Positions 384 through 22,677 of a stretch of 22,708 nucleotides of DNA are shown piece after piece (positions within the stretch are counted from its first letter, which is position 1; each line of letters opens with the position of its first letter). The notes beneath the pieces were generated by a model. It was given only the letters and a program-made list of their open reading frames with translations. It did no database searches and was not told the origin of the DNA. Origin of the DNA: an uncultured Bacilli bacterium (GTDB lineage Bacteria; Bacillota_I; Bacilli_A; RF39; UBA660); assembly GCA_910586425.1 (NCBI GenBank), contig CAJUHL010000025.1, positions 1-22,708 of the forward strand. The letters run 5' to 3'. The translations under genes and the position numbers were made by a program.

Positions 384-1517
384 TTACTTATTTGTATACT
401 TCATACTTTCATTTGAAATATCAAAAATAATCCCTGTCATTATCATGTAACTGAGTAAACTAGAACCTCCATAACTAATGTAAGGCAGCGTAATCCCTGT
501 AATTGGCATAATCCCATAAGTCATTCCGATATTTTGAAATTGTTGATATATCAACATCCCCACGATCCCACCAATGATATATTTTTGAACATTGGAATTT
601 GTTTTAATGGCAGTAATGATTAAACGAATATCGAACAAGAGAATAATTGATAGAAATAAAAATGATCCAATAAAACCAAAGTTACTTGCAAATACAGCAA
701 AAATGAAATCTGTTTGAGGTTCTGGAAAATAAATCGGGGTATGATGAAATCCATGGCCAAAAAGGCCTCCAGATCCAATTGCAGTCATACCATACTGTAA
801 TTGGAATCCTGATCCGTTGGACCAATCCAGTAAACGATCGACTCTTAAAAAGAAACTTGTTCCAAAAAGGCGAATGAACAATTCTTGATTCTGAAAATAG
901 ATGATTAGAACACTTCCAATCGTTATGGCTAAAAGGGCAAATAGTATAATAAACCATCGATATCGAATTCCTGAGATAAACAACATGCAAATTGTAATTA
1001 ATAAATAAATTAAGACAACCCCAGTATCTGGCTGTAAAAAAGTTAGAATACTTGGAATTAGTACAATTATTCCAACTTTGCATAAAAATAGAAATTCTTC
1101 AAAAACGGTTGGATTGGAATGTTTGTCATGAAATTTTTGAATTTGTTGGGCAATCAGTAAAATTAAAATAATTTTCATAAATTCACTTGGTTGAATGGTT
1201 CCAACGCCAGGAAGAGCATACCAACATTTTGCTTCATTGATTTCCTTCCCAAAGAAAAATAAACCAATTAAAGATAGAATGCCAATGATATAAAAAAACC
1301 AAGCTTTCTTAATTAAAAAGGTGTTTCCAATTCTTAAAATAATGTAGGCAAGGATAAAACCAACTATATACCAAAGAAATTGTTTGAAGGCTAGATCTTG
1401 CATAGTATCTGGGAGTAGTGCTTGGGCACTATAGATAGATGCAACACTGATGATTGAAAATAGTATCATAGGAATGACCAAAAATATATCGATACGATAT
1501 TTTGCTATTTTATACAT
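384..1517 (-). CDS. rodA: RodA/FtsW-family SEDS peptidoglycan polymerase
   Basis: Polytopic SEDS protein of about 377 aa with roughly ten hydrophobic helices. SEDS proteins polymerise lipid II glycan strands together with a class B PBP. Family hallmarks visible are IQPSEFMKI near residue 110, the LQPDTG loop with its conserved Asp, a PEPQTDFIFA segment, and GITLPYISYGGSSLLSYM near the C-terminus. These fit the elongation-type RodA slightly better than FtsW. The ATG at 1517 is preferred over a GTG at 1526 because AGGTG lies 6 nt upstream of it. The gene is divergent from the EIIB-like gene at 1654. The rodA assignment rather than ftsW is likely but not certain. Confidence 0.88.
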   Translation of the reverse strand: MYKIAKYRIDIFLVIPMILFSIISVASIYSAQALLPDTMQDLAFKQFLWYIVGFILAYIILRIGNTFLIKKAWFFYIIGILSLIGLFFFGKEINEAKCWYALPGVGTIQPSEFMKIILILLIAQQIQKFHDKHSNPTVFEEFLFLCKVGIIVLIPSILTFLQPDTGVVLIYLLITICMLFISGIRYRWFIILFALLAITIGSVLIIYFQNQELFIRLFGTSFFLRVDRLLDWSNGSGFQLQYGMTAIGSGGLFGHGFHHTPIYFPEPQTDFIFAVFASNFGFIGSFLFLSIILLFDIRLIITAIKTNSNVQKYIIGGIVGMLIYQQFQNIGMTYGIMPITGITLPYISYGGSSLLSYMIMTGIIFDISNESMKYTNK

Positions 1518-1578
1518 ATGAATCACCTTTTTTTCATCTTACCGCAAAATAAAATGAACTACAAATGAATTCGGTTGA

Positions 1579-14526: not shown

Positions 14527-14584
14527 CATGTAAAAGATTCATAAATGTTTGATTTTGTCATATTTTTGTAATAGAGGTGGAATG

Positions 14585-15232
14585 ATGAAAAAGATTGTAG
14601 TATTGTGCATTTGTTTAGGATTACTTCTACCATGTCGATTGGTAAAAGCAGAAACAGACTTGGCTCCAAATGCGAAAAGTGCAGTTTTAATAGAGGCAAG
14701 TACAGGAAAGATTATTTATGAAAAAAATAGTCATGAAAAGCTTGCACCAGCTTCTATGACCAAAATGATGAGTATGTTAGTGATTGTAGAAAGTATTGAA
14801 AAAGGAGTCATTGGTTGGGATGATATGGTTACAGCATCAGAAAATGCATCTAAAATGGGTGGTAGTCAGATATTGTTAGAAACTGGAGAACAAATGCTTG
14901 TATCCGATTTGTTCAAAGGTGTTGCAGTTGCTAGTGGAAATGACGCGGTTGTTGCACTTGCTGAAGCAGTAGCAGGAACAGAAGAAGAATTTGTATCTAT
15001 GATGAATCAAAGGGCAAAGGAGCTTGGATTAACTGATACTGTATTTAAAAATCCCCATGGATTAGATGATGCCAATCATTATTCTAGTGCATATGACATG
15101 ATGTTAATTGCCAAGGAGCTTGTAAAACATGAAAAAGTATTAGAATATACATCCATTTATGAGGACTATTTACGAAAAGGAACTCCCAAAGAATTGTGGC
15201 TTGTTAATACCAATAAAGTCGTATGTGTATAA
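14585..15232 (+). pseudogene. dacF: dacF 5' part, split by the serine-recombinase element
   Basis: N-terminal part of a DacF/DacA-type (S11) D-alanyl-D-alanine carboxypeptidase. Signal peptide (1-22, ending VKA), then AKSAVLIEASTGKIIYEKN, the nucleophile motif SMTK (S57-K60) and SGN (S117-N119) are intact. Native sequence runs to Lys211 (15215-15217); the element then supplies V-V-C-V and a stop, so the product lacks the KTG motif and the C-terminal domain. The ATG at 14585 is preferred (AGAGGTG 5 nt upstream); ATG at 14582 is next to it. The remaining 173 residues lie at 19083-19604 in a frame restored by excision. It is therefore an interrupted gene, possibly repairable, rather than a decayed one. 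Confidence 0.9.
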
Positions 15233-16078: not shown

Positions 16079-16924
16079 ATGGAAAAAGAATTAAATGGAG
16101 AATTAAATAGTTATGAAAAAGTAGAAGAAACAAAAGATAGTTATAAAAAACAATTGTATTGGGATATGGCTATTGGATTACAACAAGTAGATAGTCTTGT
16201 ACCTTCAAAATATCTCATAGAATTAGCTAATGATAATATTAATGGAAAAATAAGTAGTTATAAAATAGAAGAATTGTTAAATAAATATTATGCAAAACAA
16301 AATATGGCTGATAAGAAAGTATCAGATGAACACGAGTGTGATTTAGTTGCTACTAGAATTGTTGAACTGTTAAATGATAAGAATTTTTCTTTTAGACCTA
16401 TCACATTAAAAGTAATTCATGAATATCTATTTAAAGGAATTTATGATTTTGCTGGTAAGTATAGAACATACAATATCACAAAAGAAGAACCAATTTTAAA
16501 AGGTGATACAGTTATCTATGCATCATTTAATGAAATTGAAAGAACTTTGGATTATGATTTTAATCAAGAAATGAAATATGATTATTCTAAATTAACATTA
16601 CAAGAGCAGATCAATCATATAGTAGATTTTACTTCAAGAGTATGGCAGGTACATGCGTTTGGGGAAGGAAATACTAGAACTGTTGCAGTTATGATTGAAA
16701 AGTATTTGAGAAGTCTAGGTTATGATGTTAATAACGATTTATTTAAAGAACATTCTGTTTATTTTAGAAATGCATTAGTGAGAAGTAATTATTCGAATAG
16801 AGCAAAGAATATTTATCCTACAAATGAATATCTAATTAAATTTTTTGAGAATCTGTTAGTTGGTAAGAAACATGAATTAAGTAGTAAAGATTTAATGGTT
16901 ATAGAATTATTTAATAATAATTAG
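16079..16924 (+). CDS. Fic-domain protein with VbhA-like N-terminal antitoxin region
   Basis: A 281-aa protein. The C-terminal Fic domain has the catalytic motif HAFGEGNTRT (H192 to R200; canonical HxFxxGNGR with T at the G position) and the flap region around YNITKEEPIL (131-140), preceded by IYDFAGKYR. Fic enzymes transfer AMP or other nucleotide parts to proteins and act as toxins or regulators. Residues about 24-72 (YWDMAIGLQQVDSLVPSKYL ... ISSYKIEELLNKYY) match the VbhA antitoxin helix bundle pattern, here fused to the toxin. At the inhibitory S/TxxxE(G/N) site the aligned residues read QQVDS, so the regulatory Glu appears to be Asp. Start has AAAGGAGGT and a TACAAT -10 at 16045-16050. 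It is the main cargo of the element. Confidence 0.88.
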   Translation: MEKELNGELNSYEKVEETKDSYKKQLYWDMAIGLQQVDSLVPSKYLIELANDNINGKISSYKIEELLNKYYAKQNMADKKVSDEHECDLVATRIVELLNDKNFSFRPITLKVIHEYLFKGIYDFAGKYRTYNITKEEPILKGDTVIYASFNEIERTLDYDFNQEMKYDYSKLTLQEQINHIVDFTSRVWQVHAFGEGNTRTVAVMIEKYLRSLGYDVNNDLFKEHSVYFRNALVRSNYSNRAKNIYPTNEYLIKFFENLLVGKKHELSSKDLMVIELFNNN

Positions 16925-17280: not shown

Positions 17281-17316
17281 AAAGAGAACTTAACTAGCAA
17301 AAGTTAAGTTCTTTTA
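17281..17316. terminator. Bidirectional terminator
   Basis: AGAACTTAAC (17285-17294) and GTTAAGTTCT (17303-17312) are exact complements over 10 bp, flanked by A-run and T-run. On the minus strand the 5' arm encodes the last codons of the recombinase (K-E-L-N), so stop codon and loop overlap. Confidence 0.85.
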
Positions 17317-18736
17317 TTATGGGATTACCATTATTTACATCAAGAATTATGCTATCAATAAATTGGCTTATGAACGAGTTTTTTTGGGAGGTGTCTAGAT
17401 GTTCCCAATTGAGTTTAATGTCGCTTAAAATGTCTTTAAACTTACTATAATCAAGTGTTGATTCTTGTTCTTTATTAATGTTCCTTATAGAGTGATTAAT
17501 CAATTCTTTTTGATTTTGAATGTCTTTTAATAATTCTTTATAATCATTAGTATCTATTTCTTCATTAATAAATAATTTTTGGATTCTTTTTCTTTTGTTT
17601 TCAATTGTGGATAATTCCTTATTAAGTCTATCAAGTTTTTTATCATTCTTCTTATTGGTATTAATTTCAATATTGCAATCTAACTTTATATCTTTAATAT
17701 AATTTTCAAAGGCATTTAATACTTTAGCATGTGAAATACCACCACATTCACACCGAGCAGTTTGTTTATTATTACAATAATAAGTGATATATAATTTACC
17801 ATTATGACTTTGCTGTTTTGCATGAAATCTTGCTCCACAATGGGAACATTTTAATACTAGACCAAAGTAAGCATTTTCACTTGGAAATTTTTTTACATTG
17901 AAATGCTTTCTTTTCTTTATCATATTTTGAACCTTTTTGAATGTGTATTCATCAATAATTGGTTCGTGTTCGCTTTCCACAATAAATGCTTTATTTTTAA
18001 TCTTTTTATTTACACCATAACGAACTCTACCTAAATATGTTTCATTTGTAAGAATCGATTGAATCGTAGATTGAGACCAATCACCACCTCGTTTAGTTGG
18101 AACATTCCTTAAGTTATAATCTTTGGCAATACTAATCATTGCTTTTCCACTTAAGTAATTTTGATAAGTAAGTCTCACTAGTTCAGCTTCTTCTTCATTG
18201 ATAACTAAATCGCCTTTACCAACAATGTAATCATATCCATAAACACCATTTGTATTGGTATAGTTTCCTTGTCTTGTTTTTTCTTCATAACCAAAACTGA
18301 CTCGTTCAGCTAGGTTTTCTCGTTCGAATTCGGCGAAGATTCCAATGATTTTAATAAACATTCGCCCAACTGCATTGCTAGTATCCAACTTTTCGGTGAC
18401 TGATGAAAAACTACAATTATATTGCTCAAATAATTCAATTAAATTGATTAAGTCTTTAACAGATCTGGTTAATCGGTCAAGTTTATAGACAAGAACATTA
18501 TTGATTTCTTTCTTTTTAACAAGTTCAATTAATCTTGTTAGTTCAGGTCTATCTTTGATATTTTTTCCACTAATACCATCATCTAGAAAATAATCATATA
18601 ATTCCCAATCATTTACTTCAACATATTTAGTAAGTTTTTCTTTTTGAGCTGCAATTGAGAACCCTTCCTTGGCTTGATCTTCGGTTGATACACGAAGATA
18701 AACAGCAGTTTTTATATTTTCTCTAGTATCATTCAT
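17294..18736 (-). CDS. Large serine recombinase (integrase of the element)
   Basis: A 480-aa large serine recombinase. The resolvase domain opens AVYLRVSTEDQAKEGFSIAA with the nucleophilic Ser in RVST, then DDGISGKNIKDRPEL, VYKLDRLTRS and GRMFIKIIGIFAEFERENLAER. The recombinase domain holds GVYGYDY and TKRGGDWSQSTIQSILTNE followed by YLGRVRYG. The zinc ribbon has C-x2-C (KCSHCGARF) and later C-x5-C-x-C type cysteines (YYCNNKQTARCECGG). A coiled coil (about 370-420) follows. Such enzymes cut attP and attB with a 2-bp overlap and integrate without host factors; excision needs a directionality factor. ATG at 18736 follows GGAAGTGAG. Its location next to attR and the symmetric att sites identify it as the element's integrase. 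No accompanying excision factor is recognised. Confidence 0.95.
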   Translation of the reverse strand: MNDTRENIKTAVYLRVSTEDQAKEGFSIAAQKEKLTKYVEVNDWELYDYFLDDGISGKNIKDRPELTRLIELVKKKEINNVLVYKLDRLTRSVKDLINLIELFEQYNCSFSSVTEKLDTSNAVGRMFIKIIGIFAEFERENLAERVSFGYEEKTRQGNYTNTNGVYGYDYIVGKGDLVINEEEAELVRLTYQNYLSGKAMISIAKDYNLRNVPTKRGGDWSQSTIQSILTNETYLGRVRYGVNKKIKNKAFIVESEHEPIIDEYTFKKVQNMIKKRKHFNVKKFPSENAYFGLVLKCSHCGARFHAKQQSHNGKLYITYYCNNKQTARCECGGISHAKVLNAFENYIKDIKLDCNIEINTNKKNDKKLDRLNKELSTIENKRKRIQKLFINEEIDTNDYKELLKDIQNQKELINHSIRNINKEQESTLDYSKFKDILSDIKLNWEHLDTSQKNSFISQFIDSIILDVNNGNPIIKELNFC

Positions 18737-19056: not shown

Positions 19057-19104
19057 TTATGCTTTTATAACACACGACTAAATTGACACGTTTTTATCCA
19101 GGTG
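19057..19104. other. attR of the serine-recombinase element
   Basis: Element half (19057-19079, ending ACGACT), core AA at 19080-19081, then the dacF half ATTGACACG... from 19082. See the attL entry for the matching arm. Confidence 0.8.
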
Positions 19105-19604
19105 TGGATGGATTAAAAACAGGATTTACAGATACAGCAGGTTATTGTTTGACGGCAACTGCTCAAAAAAATGGAATGCGTTTGATTGCTGTTGTCATGG
19201 GGGAAGCAGATAGTAAGGTACGTAATGCAGAAGTTACTTCAATGTTAGATTATGGTTTCGCACAGTATAAAGTCAATGAAATTTTAAATACAAGTACAAT
19301 CATTTCGAAAGTGGAAATTGAAAAAGCAAAATCAAAACAAGTCGAATTGATTCCTGTAAAAAATGCAGTGATTGTAACACGTAAAACAGAAACCATTGGA
19401 AAAATTAGTTATAATTTGCATTTAGATTCTGTCAAAGCACCCGTTAAAATAGGTGATAAAGTCGGGAGGCTTGATATATATGAGAATGGAAGTAAAATAG
19501 GAGAAATTGATGTAACAGTAAAAGAAGAAGTAAGAAAAGCAAATTTTGCCGATTTATTTCTACGCTATTTTGGAGATATGTTAGGTGGAGCGATTCAATT
19601 TTAA
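19082..19604 (+). pseudogene. dacF: dacF 3' part (KTG motif and C-terminal domain)
   Basis: Continuation of the split carboxypeptidase, beginning at the third base of Lys211 and reading LTRFYPGVDGLKTGFTDTAG. It holds the KTG motif (K223-G225 in the restored 384-aa protein), the GYCLTATAQKNGMRLIAVVM strand and the S11 C-terminal beta domain ending in an amphipathic membrane-anchoring helix (FADLFLRYFGDMLGGAIQF). A TTG is at its first whole codon but no ribosome-binding site precedes it, so it is probably not translated alone. Reading frame intact with no decay, consistent with recent or reversible insertion. Confidence 0.9.
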
Positions 19605-20045: not shown

Positions 20046-20656
20046 ATGCAAACTATACAAATAAGAAATTCAACTGCAGAATTTTTGATTTTTACAAAAC
20101 AAAATAAAGAGAAAACAATTGAAGTGATAGTAGATGATGAATCAGTTTGGTTAAATCAAAAGCTAATTGCCGAACTTTTTGGTACAAGCAGAAACAATGT
20201 TACAATGCACTTAAATAATATTTTAGAACACGAACTAGATAGAAGTTCAGTATGTAAGGATTTCTTACATACTGCTCGAGATGGGAAAAATTATAAGACT
20301 AAGTACTACAGCCTAGATGCTATCATTTCAGTTGGTTTTAAAGTTAATAGTAAAAGAGCAATCGAATTTAGATTGTGGGCAATTAACATATTAAAACAAT
20401 ATTCTGTTAAAGGATATGTTTTAGATAAAGAAAGACTTAAAAACGGAACATTTTTAAATGAAAAATTACTGATATTTATGCTACTAGTTTGGATTATAAC
20501 AGAAATTCACCAGTCACTAAAGAATTTTTTAAAGCAGTACAAAATAAAATGCATTTTGCCACACATGGCAATACCGCTGCAGAAGTTATAGTAAAAAGAG
20601 CAAATCATGAAAAGGAGCATATGGGTCTTACTACTTGGCTTGTTTGTCCATTATGA
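20046..20656 (+). pseudogene. rhuM-like gene, internally deleted, frameshifted and truncated
   Basis: The first ~143 codons match the RhuM ('virulence protein', KilA-N-like regulator) N-terminal plan: VDDESVWLNQKLIAELFGTS, then NNVTMHLNNILEHELDRSSV, KTKYYSLDAIISVGFKVNSK and AIEFRLWAINILKQYSVKGY. After FLNEK the frame runs into non-family residues and stops at 20591. In another frame family sequence resumes, ITDIYATSLDYNRNSPVTKE through HFATHGNTAAEVIVKRANHE to MGLTTW, ending in TGA at 20656. About two dozen codons normally between FLNEK and ITDIY are missing, and the usual C-terminal part is absent. AGGAGGTGA precedes the start. RhuM genes are common in mobile islands; their function is not established. 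Confidence 0.8.
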
Positions 20657-20892
20657 CACGATTTAACAAAATGACTGATTTGCTTTATTTTTATTTAAAA
20701 AATGGATAATAAACACATTATGTTAAATGAATTAGAAAACAAAGAAATTGATGAAAATTTTACTATTTTAGTATCTATAATTAAATAAATATGTCCTCAA
20801 AGATACTAAATAAATATTTAAAATAAGTGAATGTTATTAAAATTTAGTTTTGAGAAAAGGTATGAATGCCATAGAAAAAATCAGCAAAAGGA
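20657..20892. other. AT-rich spacer before abi locus
   Basis: No gene supported. A 23-codon frame from the ATG near 20719 (MLNELENKEIDENF...) and a 15-codon frame from 20862 (MNAIEKISKRIDEGR) could be scraps of decayed genes; neither has a convincing ribosome-binding site. Confidence 0.35.
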
Positions 20893-20921
20893 TTGACGAA
20901 GGCAGATAATTATGGTATGAT
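20893..20921 (+). promoter_or_regulatory. Promoter of the abi RNA/mRNA, TTGACG-17-TATGAT
   Basis: -35 TTGACG (20893-20898) and -10 TATGAT (20916-20921) with a 17-bp spacer. The structured motif begins 8 nt after the -10, so the transcript would start at or within a base or two of it. Confidence 0.82.
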
Positions 20922-20928
20922 TTATATC

Positions 20929-20965
20929 GATTGGTACTCAGGAAACTTTCGAAGCCCTGAGTCGT
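20929..20965 (+). ncRNA. Structured RNA motif, copy 1 (upstream of abi)
   Basis: A 37-nt motif. ACTCAGG (20936-20942) pairs with CCTGAGT (20956-20962), and the loop AAACTTTCGAAGC contains a nested CTT/AAG pair around TCG. Copy 2 at 21885-21921 matches at 31 of 37 positions, with an identical loop and compensating stem changes. After copy 1 only a weak T-rich tract (GTTTTATTTT) follows, then the abi ribosome-binding site AAGGATG, so it can be the 5' end of the abi mRNA, a separate short RNA, or both. Association of a structured RNA with AbiF-type genes is known; identity with that RNA is inferred. Confidence 0.75.
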
Positions 20966-20987
20966 TTTATTTTAAGGATGTGATTTA

Positions 20988-21866
20988 ATGAAGCAATATA
21001 AAAATATAAATGAATTATTAGATTATATAATGAGTAAAGGCGTTATAGTAACTAATAAGGATGATGCTTTAGAAAAACTTCAAAAATATTCTTATTATGG
21101 AGTAATAAATAGTTATAAAGATATATTTAAAACTTCTTCTAATGATTATAAAAAGAATGTATCTTTTGATGAAATCTACGATTTATATGAATTTGATAAG
21201 AATATAAGAGCAATATTTTTAAAATACATTCTTGAAATAGAAACAATTATTAAATCACTATTAGCAGAAACTATTTCATCAAAATATGGAATAGAAGATT
21301 ATTTAATATTAGAAAACTTTGATGATACAGTAAAACAAGAAGTTATACAAGAATCAATTACTAAAATAAAAGAAGAAATTGATAAACAAAATGGTAAACA
21401 TGAGGCAATAACACATTATTTAAATGTTTATGGCTTTGTTCCTCCTTTTGTATTAGTGAAAATTTTAACATTAGGGGAATTAAGTAGATTATATACAATG
21501 TTAAAACAAGTAGATAGACAGTCTATTAGTAAAGAATTTAAAATATCTGATAAATTGTTAAAACAAATTATGAAAAATATGACTATGATAAGAAATATAT
21601 GTGCTCATAATGACAGGTTATTTTCTTTTCATAGTAAATTTTTAATTACATTTAAAATTATTGATAAAAACTATGACAATAAAGATAAATCAACTAATAT
21701 TTATATGATTATGAAGTCTATGAAATTATTACTTGGAAGTGATATAGGAAAAGAATTCGAAAACCTTATAATAGATGAAATTGAAAATTTGAAAAGTAAA
21801 ATAAAATCAGTTGATCATAATATTATTTTATATTTAATGGGATTTCCTACGAATAAAAATATTTAA
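20988..21866 (+). CDS. abiF: AbiF/AbiD-type abortive-infection protein (Abi_2, HEPN fold)
   Basis: A 292-aa protein. N-terminal SKGVIVTNKDDALEKLQKYS and YYGVINSYKDIF match the Abi_2 (PF07751) start. The centre has YEFDKNIRAIFLKYILEIE, and the HEPN ribonuclease-type motif RNICAHNDR (R202-x4-H207) lies near residue 205. Abi_2 proteins (AbiD, AbiF) block phage growth, and AbiF has been described as a toxin restrained by a neighbouring structured RNA and as a relative of Cas13. ATG at 20988 follows AAGGATG. The gene is bracketed by two copies of a structured RNA motif, has its own promoter, and lies just upstream of a relaxase in accessory DNA. It is very AT-rich. Membership in Abi_2 is firm; the AbiF subtype is likely. 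Confidence 0.88.
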   Translation: MKQYKNINELLDYIMSKGVIVTNKDDALEKLQKYSYYGVINSYKDIFKTSSNDYKKNVSFDEIYDLYEFDKNIRAIFLKYILEIETIIKSLLAETISSKYGIEDYLILENFDDTVKQEVIQESITKIKEEIDKQNGKHEAITHYLNVYGFVPPFVLVKILTLGELSRLYTMLKQVDRQSISKEFKISDKLLKQIMKNMTMIRNICAHNDRLFSFHSKFLITFKIIDKNYDNKDKSTNIYMIMKSMKLLLGSDIGKEFENLIIDEIENLKSKIKSVDHNIILYLMGFPTNKNI

Positions 21867-21884
21867 AAAACATATAATATTATT

Positions 21885-21956
21885 GATTAGTACTTGAGAA
21901 ACTTTCGAAGCCTTAAGTCGTCAAAAGTTCATGTAGAAATGCATGGACTTTTTTGT
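21885..21956 (+). ncRNA. Structured RNA motif, copy 2, with own terminator
   Basis: The motif (21885-21921) folds as ACTTGAG (21892-21898) with CTTAAGT (21912-21918) around the same 13-nt loop as copy 1. A TATAAT at 21873-21878 precedes it by 6 nt, matching the -10 position of copy 1, but its -35 is poor. A terminator completes an RNA of about 70 nt. This is the better candidate for a free RNA (antitoxin-like); it could also be released from the abi transcript. Confidence 0.75.
21923..21956 (+). terminator. Intrinsic terminator after RNA copy 2
   Basis: AAAGTTCATG (21924-21933) pairs over ten positions (one G-U) with CATGGACTTT (21942-21951), followed by T residues. Confidence 0.88.
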
Positions 21957-21984
21957 CGTGTAAAAAAGAAAGTGAGGTAGATAA

Positions 21985-22677
21985 ATGAATTTAAATTATG
22001 CAATATTTAGAAGTGAACCTATTTATACTTTAAATGATTTAGCACAAATAGGATCACATAATAAAAGAGATAAAAAATTTTATAATTCTAATCCTGATAT
22101 TAAGGTAGAATTAAGTAAAAATAATATAGAATTAGTACCTTTAGCAGATAAGTATGTTAAAGGTTTTAAAATGCTTGTTAAAGATTATGAAAAAGAACAT
22201 AATGAAAGAATGAAAACTGAACGAGAAGATAGAAAAAGGACTTTTAATCAAATGCTAGATAAATCTAAAAATGTTGTAGCAGATGAGTTATTATTTACTG
22301 CTACAAATGAGTTTTTTAAAGAAATGACAAAAGAGGATATACTTGATTGGGCTAATACTTGTATGGAATTTGTTTATGAAGATTTAGGTTACACCAAAGA
22401 ACAAGTTTTACATAGTGTTGTGCATTTAGATGAGACAACACCACATATTCATTGTGTAGTTGTACCACTTGTTAAAAAACTAGATAAAAGAACTAATACA
22501 GAAAGATTTACTATTTCTAAAAAACAATATATTAGAGATAAAATACACTTATCTGAATTACAGGATAAATATCATAAACGATTAACTGACAAAGGTTACG
22601 ATTTAGAAAGAGGAATCAAAGGTAGTGATAGAAAGCACATTAAAATTAAAGACTATGGTGTTAGTATAGATATATAG
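21985..22677 (+). CDS. MobV/Pre-family relaxase, C-terminally truncated
   Basis: A 230-aa N-terminal relaxase domain. The start NLNYAIFRSEPIYTLNDLAQ IGSHNKRDK is that of MobV (Pre) proteins. The metal-binding motif HLDETTPHIH is at 147-156, and DKRTNTERFTISKKQYIRDK and ERGIKGSDRKHIKIKDY follow. MobV relaxases nick oriT and start mobilisation of small plasmids and integrative elements. Full-length relatives run to about 400 residues or more; here family sequence ends at KIKDY and a stop follows six codons later, next to a TAGTATA/TATACTA inverted repeat, so an insertion or deletion has probably cut the gene. GTGAGG precedes the ATG. No recognisable MobV oriT is seen upstream. Confidence 0.85.
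   Translation: MNLNYAIFRSEPIYTLNDLAQIGSHNKRDKKFYNSNPDIKVELSKNNIELVPLADKYVKGFKMLVKDYEKEHNERMKTEREDRKRTFNQMLDKSKNVVADELLFTATNEFFKEMTKEDILDWANTCMEFVYEDLGYTKEQVLHSVVHLDETTPHIHCVVVPLVKKLDKRTNTERFTISKKQYIRDKIHLSELQDKYHKRLTDKGYDLERGIKGSDRKHIKIKDYGVSIDI

Follow-up and report, generated by a model that had tools for sequence, protein, structure and literature searches.

The abiF locus

The window, by which we mean the whole stretch of 22,708 nt analysed here, derives from an uncultured member of the Bacilli and carries near its 3' end an abiF gene bracketed by two copies of a hairpin motif in direct orientation (Table 1). A repeat search to which the motif was not given returned a pair of direct repeats of 41 nt (20925-20965 and 21881-21921; 83% identical and 956 nt apart), and so recovered the two 37-nt motifs, with 31 of 37 bases in common, that a preliminary description of this DNA had placed around an Abi_2 gene. 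The three stem pairs that differ between the copies all remain paired (C-G to T-A, A-T to G-T and G-C to A-T), exactly as that description had it, and the promoter it gave ahead of copy 1 and the TATAAT ahead of copy 2 are both present. Hereafter U denotes the upstream copy and D the downstream copy.

Copy 1 is composed of a 7-bp stem, AAA, a 3-bp inner stem (CUU/AAG), a 3-nt loop and a C. Directly 3' of it a U-rich tract can be read from the sequence, so that copy 1 may also be a weak terminator within the leader. The intrinsic terminator previously claimed after copy 2 was missed by a simple terminator scan but appears when copy 2 is folded together with it (-19.7 kcal/mol, z -1.99), and has variable counterparts in relatives (by eye). 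Taken singly, the hairpins are not unusually stable when compared with shuffled sequences (z -1.31 and -0.09); being energetically unremarkable one by one, they depend for their case on conservation.

The protein was rightly described as AbiF-like, with a HEPN domain. It matches Pfam Abi_2 (PF07751; 156 bits against a cut-off of 25.6, E 1.7e-45), is assigned by PADLOC to AbiD (E 1.8e-55), and has the R-N-x-x-A-H catalytic motif of HEPN proteins as RNICAH at residues 202-207. Its fold is that of PbAbiF, a protein solved together with its ncRNA, to which it is 20% identical (PDB 8vz6). PbAbiF is reported to bind one RNA per monomer (PMC12737573). The C. difficile AbiF is described as toxic and as neutralised, in cis and in trans, by RCd22, an RNA with two hairpins; R202 and H207 of its RNQCAH motif are required for toxicity, which is lost when both are changed (PMC12373285).

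Several features of the surrounding DNA may be recorded. Upstream of the module lies a RhuM-family ORF (20046-20591), which looks truncated since the match covers only positions 1-97 of 252. Further upstream, about 3.85 kb interrupts a gene for a D-alanyl-D-alanine carboxypeptidase (Peptidase_S11, PBP5_C), whose two parts lie at 14549-15232 and 19083-19604. The interruption holds a large serine recombinase (17294-18736, minus strand) together with a Fic gene (16079-16924), and no att repeat stood out clearly.

Table 1. Features of the abiF module in the window, with their basis.
Feature	Position	Strand	Basis or detail
Promoter of copy 1	20893..20921	+	TTGACG-17-TATGAT, TG ahead of -10
RNA copy 1 (U)	20929..20965	+	62.4 bits with covariance model R1
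Ribosome-binding site AAGGA	20974..20978	+	read from sequence
abiF (Abi_2 HEPN protein, 292 aa)	20988..21866	+	Pfam and PADLOC matches
HEPN catalytic motif RNICAH (R202, H207)	21591..21608	+	invariant across 20 aligned sequences
-10 box of copy 2, TATAAT, without -35	21873..21878	+	read from sequence
RNA copy 2 (D), direct repeat of copy 1	21885..21921	+	58.4 bits with R1
Terminator hairpin and T run after copy 2	21923..21955	+	fold of 21870-21960
Mob_Pre (MobV-type) relaxase ORF beside module	21985..22677	+	PF01076, E 1.2e-31

Conservation of the two-sided arrangement

A protein-based genome scan gave five loci, and the four close relatives among them (77-96% identity) all have both RNA copies; the distant fifth (L005, 27% identity) has neither. 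When the search was extended to 291 genomes of the family, both copies were found in all 27 loci that have both flanks and a full-length or near full-length abiF match (the window, L001-L004, L008-L021 and L023-L030; relatives 47-96% identical). This count includes L023 despite its broken abiF frame and leaves out L022, L031 and L035, which are cut by contig ends, as well as the distant L005. Both copies also occur at L032, L073 and L107, where the gene is broken or partial, some in degenerate form (the U of L107 scores 23.7 bits and L032 has variant cores). These AbiF proteins, which we call clade A, form one branch of the tree with support of 100/99 (26 clade-A rows). When the 200 nt on either side of the gene were compared without reference to the motif, direct similarity (p<0.01) was found at 25 of 26 clade-A loci, at none of 14 loci of a second group (group B, below) and at none of six phage AbiF loci, a seventh phage locus being too short.

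The proposed layout, with copy 1 as a 5' leader and copy 2 furnished with its own -10 box and terminator, holds across clade A. Between the U core and the beginning of the coding match there are 42-54 nt (126 in L023, where the match begins late), and U is followed by a U-rich stretch, a ribosome-binding site and ATG; U copies have a -10 box matching at least 4/6 in 28/28 cases and a -35 box matching at least 4/6 in 21/28. D begins 7-29 nt past the abiF stop, with a -10 box exactly 6 nt ahead of the RNA in 29/29 copies, perfect in 24, and a -35 matching at just 2-3/6 in all 29. By eye, D is followed in several clades by a terminator hairpin and in L024-L031 by a U-rich stretch. Within a locus, the last three motif bases of U and D agree in 26/27 cases (permutation mean 7.1, maximum 18), which fits two RNAs serving one protein, a pattern that gene conversion or shared descent would also give. 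In the literature consulted we found no printed description of this layout; Zilberzwige-Tal et al. (the original AbiF-Cas13 paper) or Weinberg et al. 2017 may have one.

An RNA family outside the Rfam model

An alignment of 36 distinct copies follows a single layout: a 7-nt tail, a 7-bp stem, AAA, the CUU/AAG inner stem, a 3-nt loop and C. Covariation, first proposed from the two copies of one locus, extends to homologous loci, with all 360 of the alignment cells paired and five outer-stem pairs covarying. Three measures exceeded all 500 shuffles (the number of paired cells, that of cells with double changes, and the covariation score); two of the five did not rise above them (pairs with a double change, 101/500; further pair types, 460/500). 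Since the search was keyed on the inner core AAACTTNNGAAGC, the invariance of that core is a product of how the copies were selected; the outer stem was left free in the search.

No Rfam family matched the RNA, either in the window, where the gathering cut-off was applied, or in the 14 loci checked. The idea that the motifs are the Rfam abiF RNA found no support, in that RF03085 gave no match up to E 10 in window positions 20700-22100 and none in genomes G001-G005 (0/5), control genomes being likewise without a match. As a positive control, one of seven phage loci, that of C. difficile phage phiC2, was recognised at 37.6 bits (cut-off 37). The two also differ in their internal loop, the longer strand of which is on the 3' side in RF03085 and on the 5' side in the clade-A RNA. 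R1 in turn gave no match at any of the loci of group C, group B and phages to which it was applied.

Other AbiF groups

A hairpin of clade-A geometry lies upstream of the gene in a more distant set of loci, group C (L033, L034 and L043-L048; 30-36% identity), for which clade support is weak (83/42). Group C has a downstream hairpin also, on the opposite strand and with its own -10 box (5-6 of 6) in 8/8 loci. In an alignment of 15 distinct copies, 97% of 135 cells are paired and five pairs covary. The apical 13 nt of U and D are identical or one base apart in 6/8 loci, their stems differing; in L034 and L048 the apical parts differ more.

An Abi_2 match is present in 271 of the 291 family genomes, and among the matches listed most genomes have a single abi gene of group B, at about 30-36% identity (L049-L062, and probably also L280, L281, L284-L293 and L296-L298). 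Group B keeps the HEPN motif, as RNLCAH, in 14/14 cases checked, and shows no R1 hairpin, no flank repeat and no hairpin by eye. Such an AbiF, nearly universal and seemingly active, would be without its RNA. ORFs named by eye adjoin two of these genes: protease-like, 3' of the gene in L055, and amidase-like, 5' of the gene in L054. Outside the family, genome G505 has a distant AbiF (L098; about 32-36% identity) with an R1-like RNA (28.9 bits, 1501-1537, minus strand) found only downstream of abiF, with its own TTGACT promoter and terminator.

Solitary copies of the RNA

R1 matches occur in 73 of the 291 family genomes and in 16 of 395 genomes of the class, 12 of the latter being family members. 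By a count made by hand, a complete or near-complete clade-A abiF is present in 24 of the 73 (among them G143, whose frame is broken) and a contig-cut or fragmentary one in four. The other 45 have no abiF of at least 47% identity among the matches listed, some retaining short remnants, and as the genomes are mostly metagenome assemblies the toxin may have been missed. Outside intact modules we considered 63 copies at 58 loci, having dropped R1 matches weaker than E 2.5e-5, L148 (contig end), the third copy of L014, the copies in L032, L073, L075 and L107, and the weak class-search matches L099-L101 and L108. Flank typing returned 21 U/D, 11 U/U, 5 D/D and no D/U, with 26 of the 63 partly or wholly untyped; in leave-one-locus-out trials it was accurate in 26/28, 29/29, 27/28 and 23/29, the last and lowest figure being for the D side.

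The U/D hybrids join the promoter side of an upstream copy to the terminator side of a downstream copy. They are spread over 17 genomes and represent five abiF clades, and both sides of a hybrid point to the same clade in 15/21 (permuted mean 5.8, with 0/10000 as high), the two sides pointing to different clades in 6/21. All seven stem pairs are kept in 19/21, as is the core in 19/21. The reciprocal junction, a D-type upstream side joined to a U-type downstream side, was seen once, in L025/L160, where the decayed start of a second abiF comes after it. Remains of abiF lie at 14 of the 58 loci, two of which (L098 and L133) have distant AbiF genes, and at 44 of 58 none was found (tblastn, E 0.01, within the stretch examined).

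Comparisons of full and solitary forms were possible in a few regions. L063 and L003 can be aligned on either side (86% over 1.55 kb and 84% over 1.5 kb), and L063 lacks the approximately 1 kb that holds abiF and D in L003; having kept U alone, it is not the product of a U/D crossover. L127 aligns with L159 over 0.7 kb up to U and resumes from D onward. L083 and L136 have their upstream gene, which we take by eye to be ppdK, and both flank sides in common with L021. Both forms occur in two regions, 3' of the ppdK-named gene and beside tmRNA; tmRNA genes are near two solos (loci L127, L129 and L159), and a second hot spot is possible there, since the intact L159 can be aligned to that stretch.

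Other solitary copies are noted for their arrangement. L079 and L110 each have two R1 RNAs 83 nt apart, of different clade types by eye and each with a terminator, which look like small tandem sets of antitoxin-type RNAs. At L089 a hairpin with the R1 core and an unlike tail, ATATTTA (1373-1409), directly follows the stop of the ppdK-named gene, and the same hairpin sequence lies at position 2522 of L023, downstream of abiF.

Viral contig L189, with portal and terminase genes by PHROGs, has a solo R1 RNA (50 bits, 869-905, minus strand) directly 3' of a gene of the structural region. L191 has a weaker RNA of R1 type (32 bits, 1112-1143), ahead of terminase genes and, by eye, with a TTGACA-17-TATACT promoter and a terminator. 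These RNAs are possible decoys against AbiF, which we offer as a lead. An RNA mimic of a type III antitoxin is known from phage phiTE (PMC5449768, PMC5086642), and solitary repeat RNAs directed against CRISPR have been described (PMC10651486).

Discussion

From what can be read directly in the DNA, namely both copies with their structure and conservation, the -10 boxes and the U/D hybrid solos, we consider it likely that the window holds a two-sided toxin-antitoxin or abortive-infection module, similar to type III systems, that is able to shed its toxin by repeat recombination. By analogy with the AbiF systems already studied, AbiF would act as a dimeric HEPN RNase whose activity a small hairpin RNA suppresses; the toxin gene is flanked by two copies of the gene for that RNA, in direct repeat. 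If expressed, the RNA would bind and neutralise the protein, and it probably keeps an RNA-cutting toxin in check. Transcription from the full promoter of copy 1 would place the hairpin and its U-rich tail inside the mRNA leader, so many transcripts may end there as free antitoxin, and some would continue into abiF. Copy 2, through its own -10 box and terminator, would supply extra free antitoxin and also end the read-through mRNA; as it has no -35, it may be transcribed weakly or not independently.

The point that goes beyond the preliminary description is that the two direct repeats appear to recombine. Because the copies are direct repeats, abiF could be deleted by recombination or slippage between them; the product would be a single antitoxin-type RNA gene, complete in itself, with the copy 1 promoter ahead of it and the copy 2 terminator behind. 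Such a loss of the toxin gene, with one hairpin RNA gene left, seems to have taken place in a number of related bacteria. We infer that the solos arose in this way rather than as sites that abiF entered.

That opposite course, in which the solo is the older state, a free-standing RNA gene used as the site for an abiF circle carrying one RNA copy, strikes us as improbable. In it the solo would be an empty site, and U and D the left and right junctions. It predicts the same hybrid flanks, flank homology being symmetrical, and it accords with the loci lacking abiF remains, with the Mob_Pre ORF adjoining abiF in the window and at L152, where a related ORF lies 3' of D, and with the two regions that have both forms. 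It would require many separate insertions into matching solos, however, given that the 21 hybrids fit five abiF clades and 15 are of one clade on both sides; the abiF remains beside 14 loci, and the decayed abiF start that backs the single D/U junction, also speak against it.

It is more doubtful still that only copy 1 works, copy 2 being the relic of a lost tandem abiF or of a cassette insertion. The poor -35 of D and the remains of a tandem abiF in L025 are in its favour, but D occurs in 27/27 loci, compensating changes preserve its stem, its -10 box sits at a fixed 6 nt, and group C also retains a D, on the other strand and with a -10 of its own. Least credible is that the hairpins are plain transcription terminators or attenuators of abiF with no protein binding, as the U-rich tract after copy 1 and the terminator after copy 2 might suggest, because the outer stem varies around an apical 13 nt (found by an almost fixed core), D is followed by a separate terminator in many loci (by eye), and hairpin RNAs are bound by related AbiF proteins (PMC12373285, PDB 8vz6).

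Under the deletion reading, the solos may be retained for a purpose, namely to protect against incoming AbiF, or may be no more than scars. It is possible, if on the unlikely side, that bracketing makes the toxin safely removable and that the solo, kept as heritable immunity, accumulates at hot spots (L079 and L120 have two RNAs each) and has been acquired by phages as a decoy (L189).

Among known systems, the closest likeness is to AbiF-RCd22 of C. difficile R20291, as described in PMC12373285: an Abi_2 HEPN protein with an RN..AH motif, a promoter-proximal leader RNA with premature termination, and two hairpins per system (33 and 35 nt in RCd22). There, both hairpins are in one upstream RNA, whereas in the window they are direct repeats divided between the two sides of the gene; the hairpins also differ in sequence and in the asymmetry of the internal loop, and the window is without an RF03085 match. 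ToxIN and other type III systems, in the accounts consulted, resemble our proposal in setting an RNA antitoxin against an RNase toxin for abortive-infection phage defence, but their antitoxin is an upstream tandem repeat array, ToxI is a pseudoknot, and the assemblies are different (PMC5086642, PMC12373285). In the window one copy is upstream and one downstream; conserved hairpins of RNA type do adjoin a HEPN gene, the hairpins being presumed transcribed and the product a toxic RNase. Solitary Racr repeat units (PMC10651486) and the pseudo-ToxI of phiTE (PMC5449768, PMC5086642) are, as reported, defence RNAs found alone away from their effector, some on phages, as here; the solos described here differ in being mostly in bacterial genomes and in looking like recombination products. 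A resemblance of the repeats to CRISPR direct repeats, raised at the outset, was not borne out: two copies lie 956 nt apart around one gene with no repeat-spacer array, and the window AbiF is not a large effector with two HEPN domains of the Cas13 kind.

The RNA family is invisible to the current Rfam abiF model and belongs to an uncultured gut group of Bacilli. What is new is that the RNA also occurs without an intact abiF among the 291 related genomes, and these solos are the most surprising part. The bracket would offer a concrete route by which direct repeats of an antitoxin-type RNA lose their toxin by recombination and leave solo RNAs behind. Since AbiF has been reported as the origin of Cas13 (PMC12373285, PMC12737573), the arrangement of its RNA and gene, and the multiplication and release of that RNA, may bear on how CRISPR-like repeats began.
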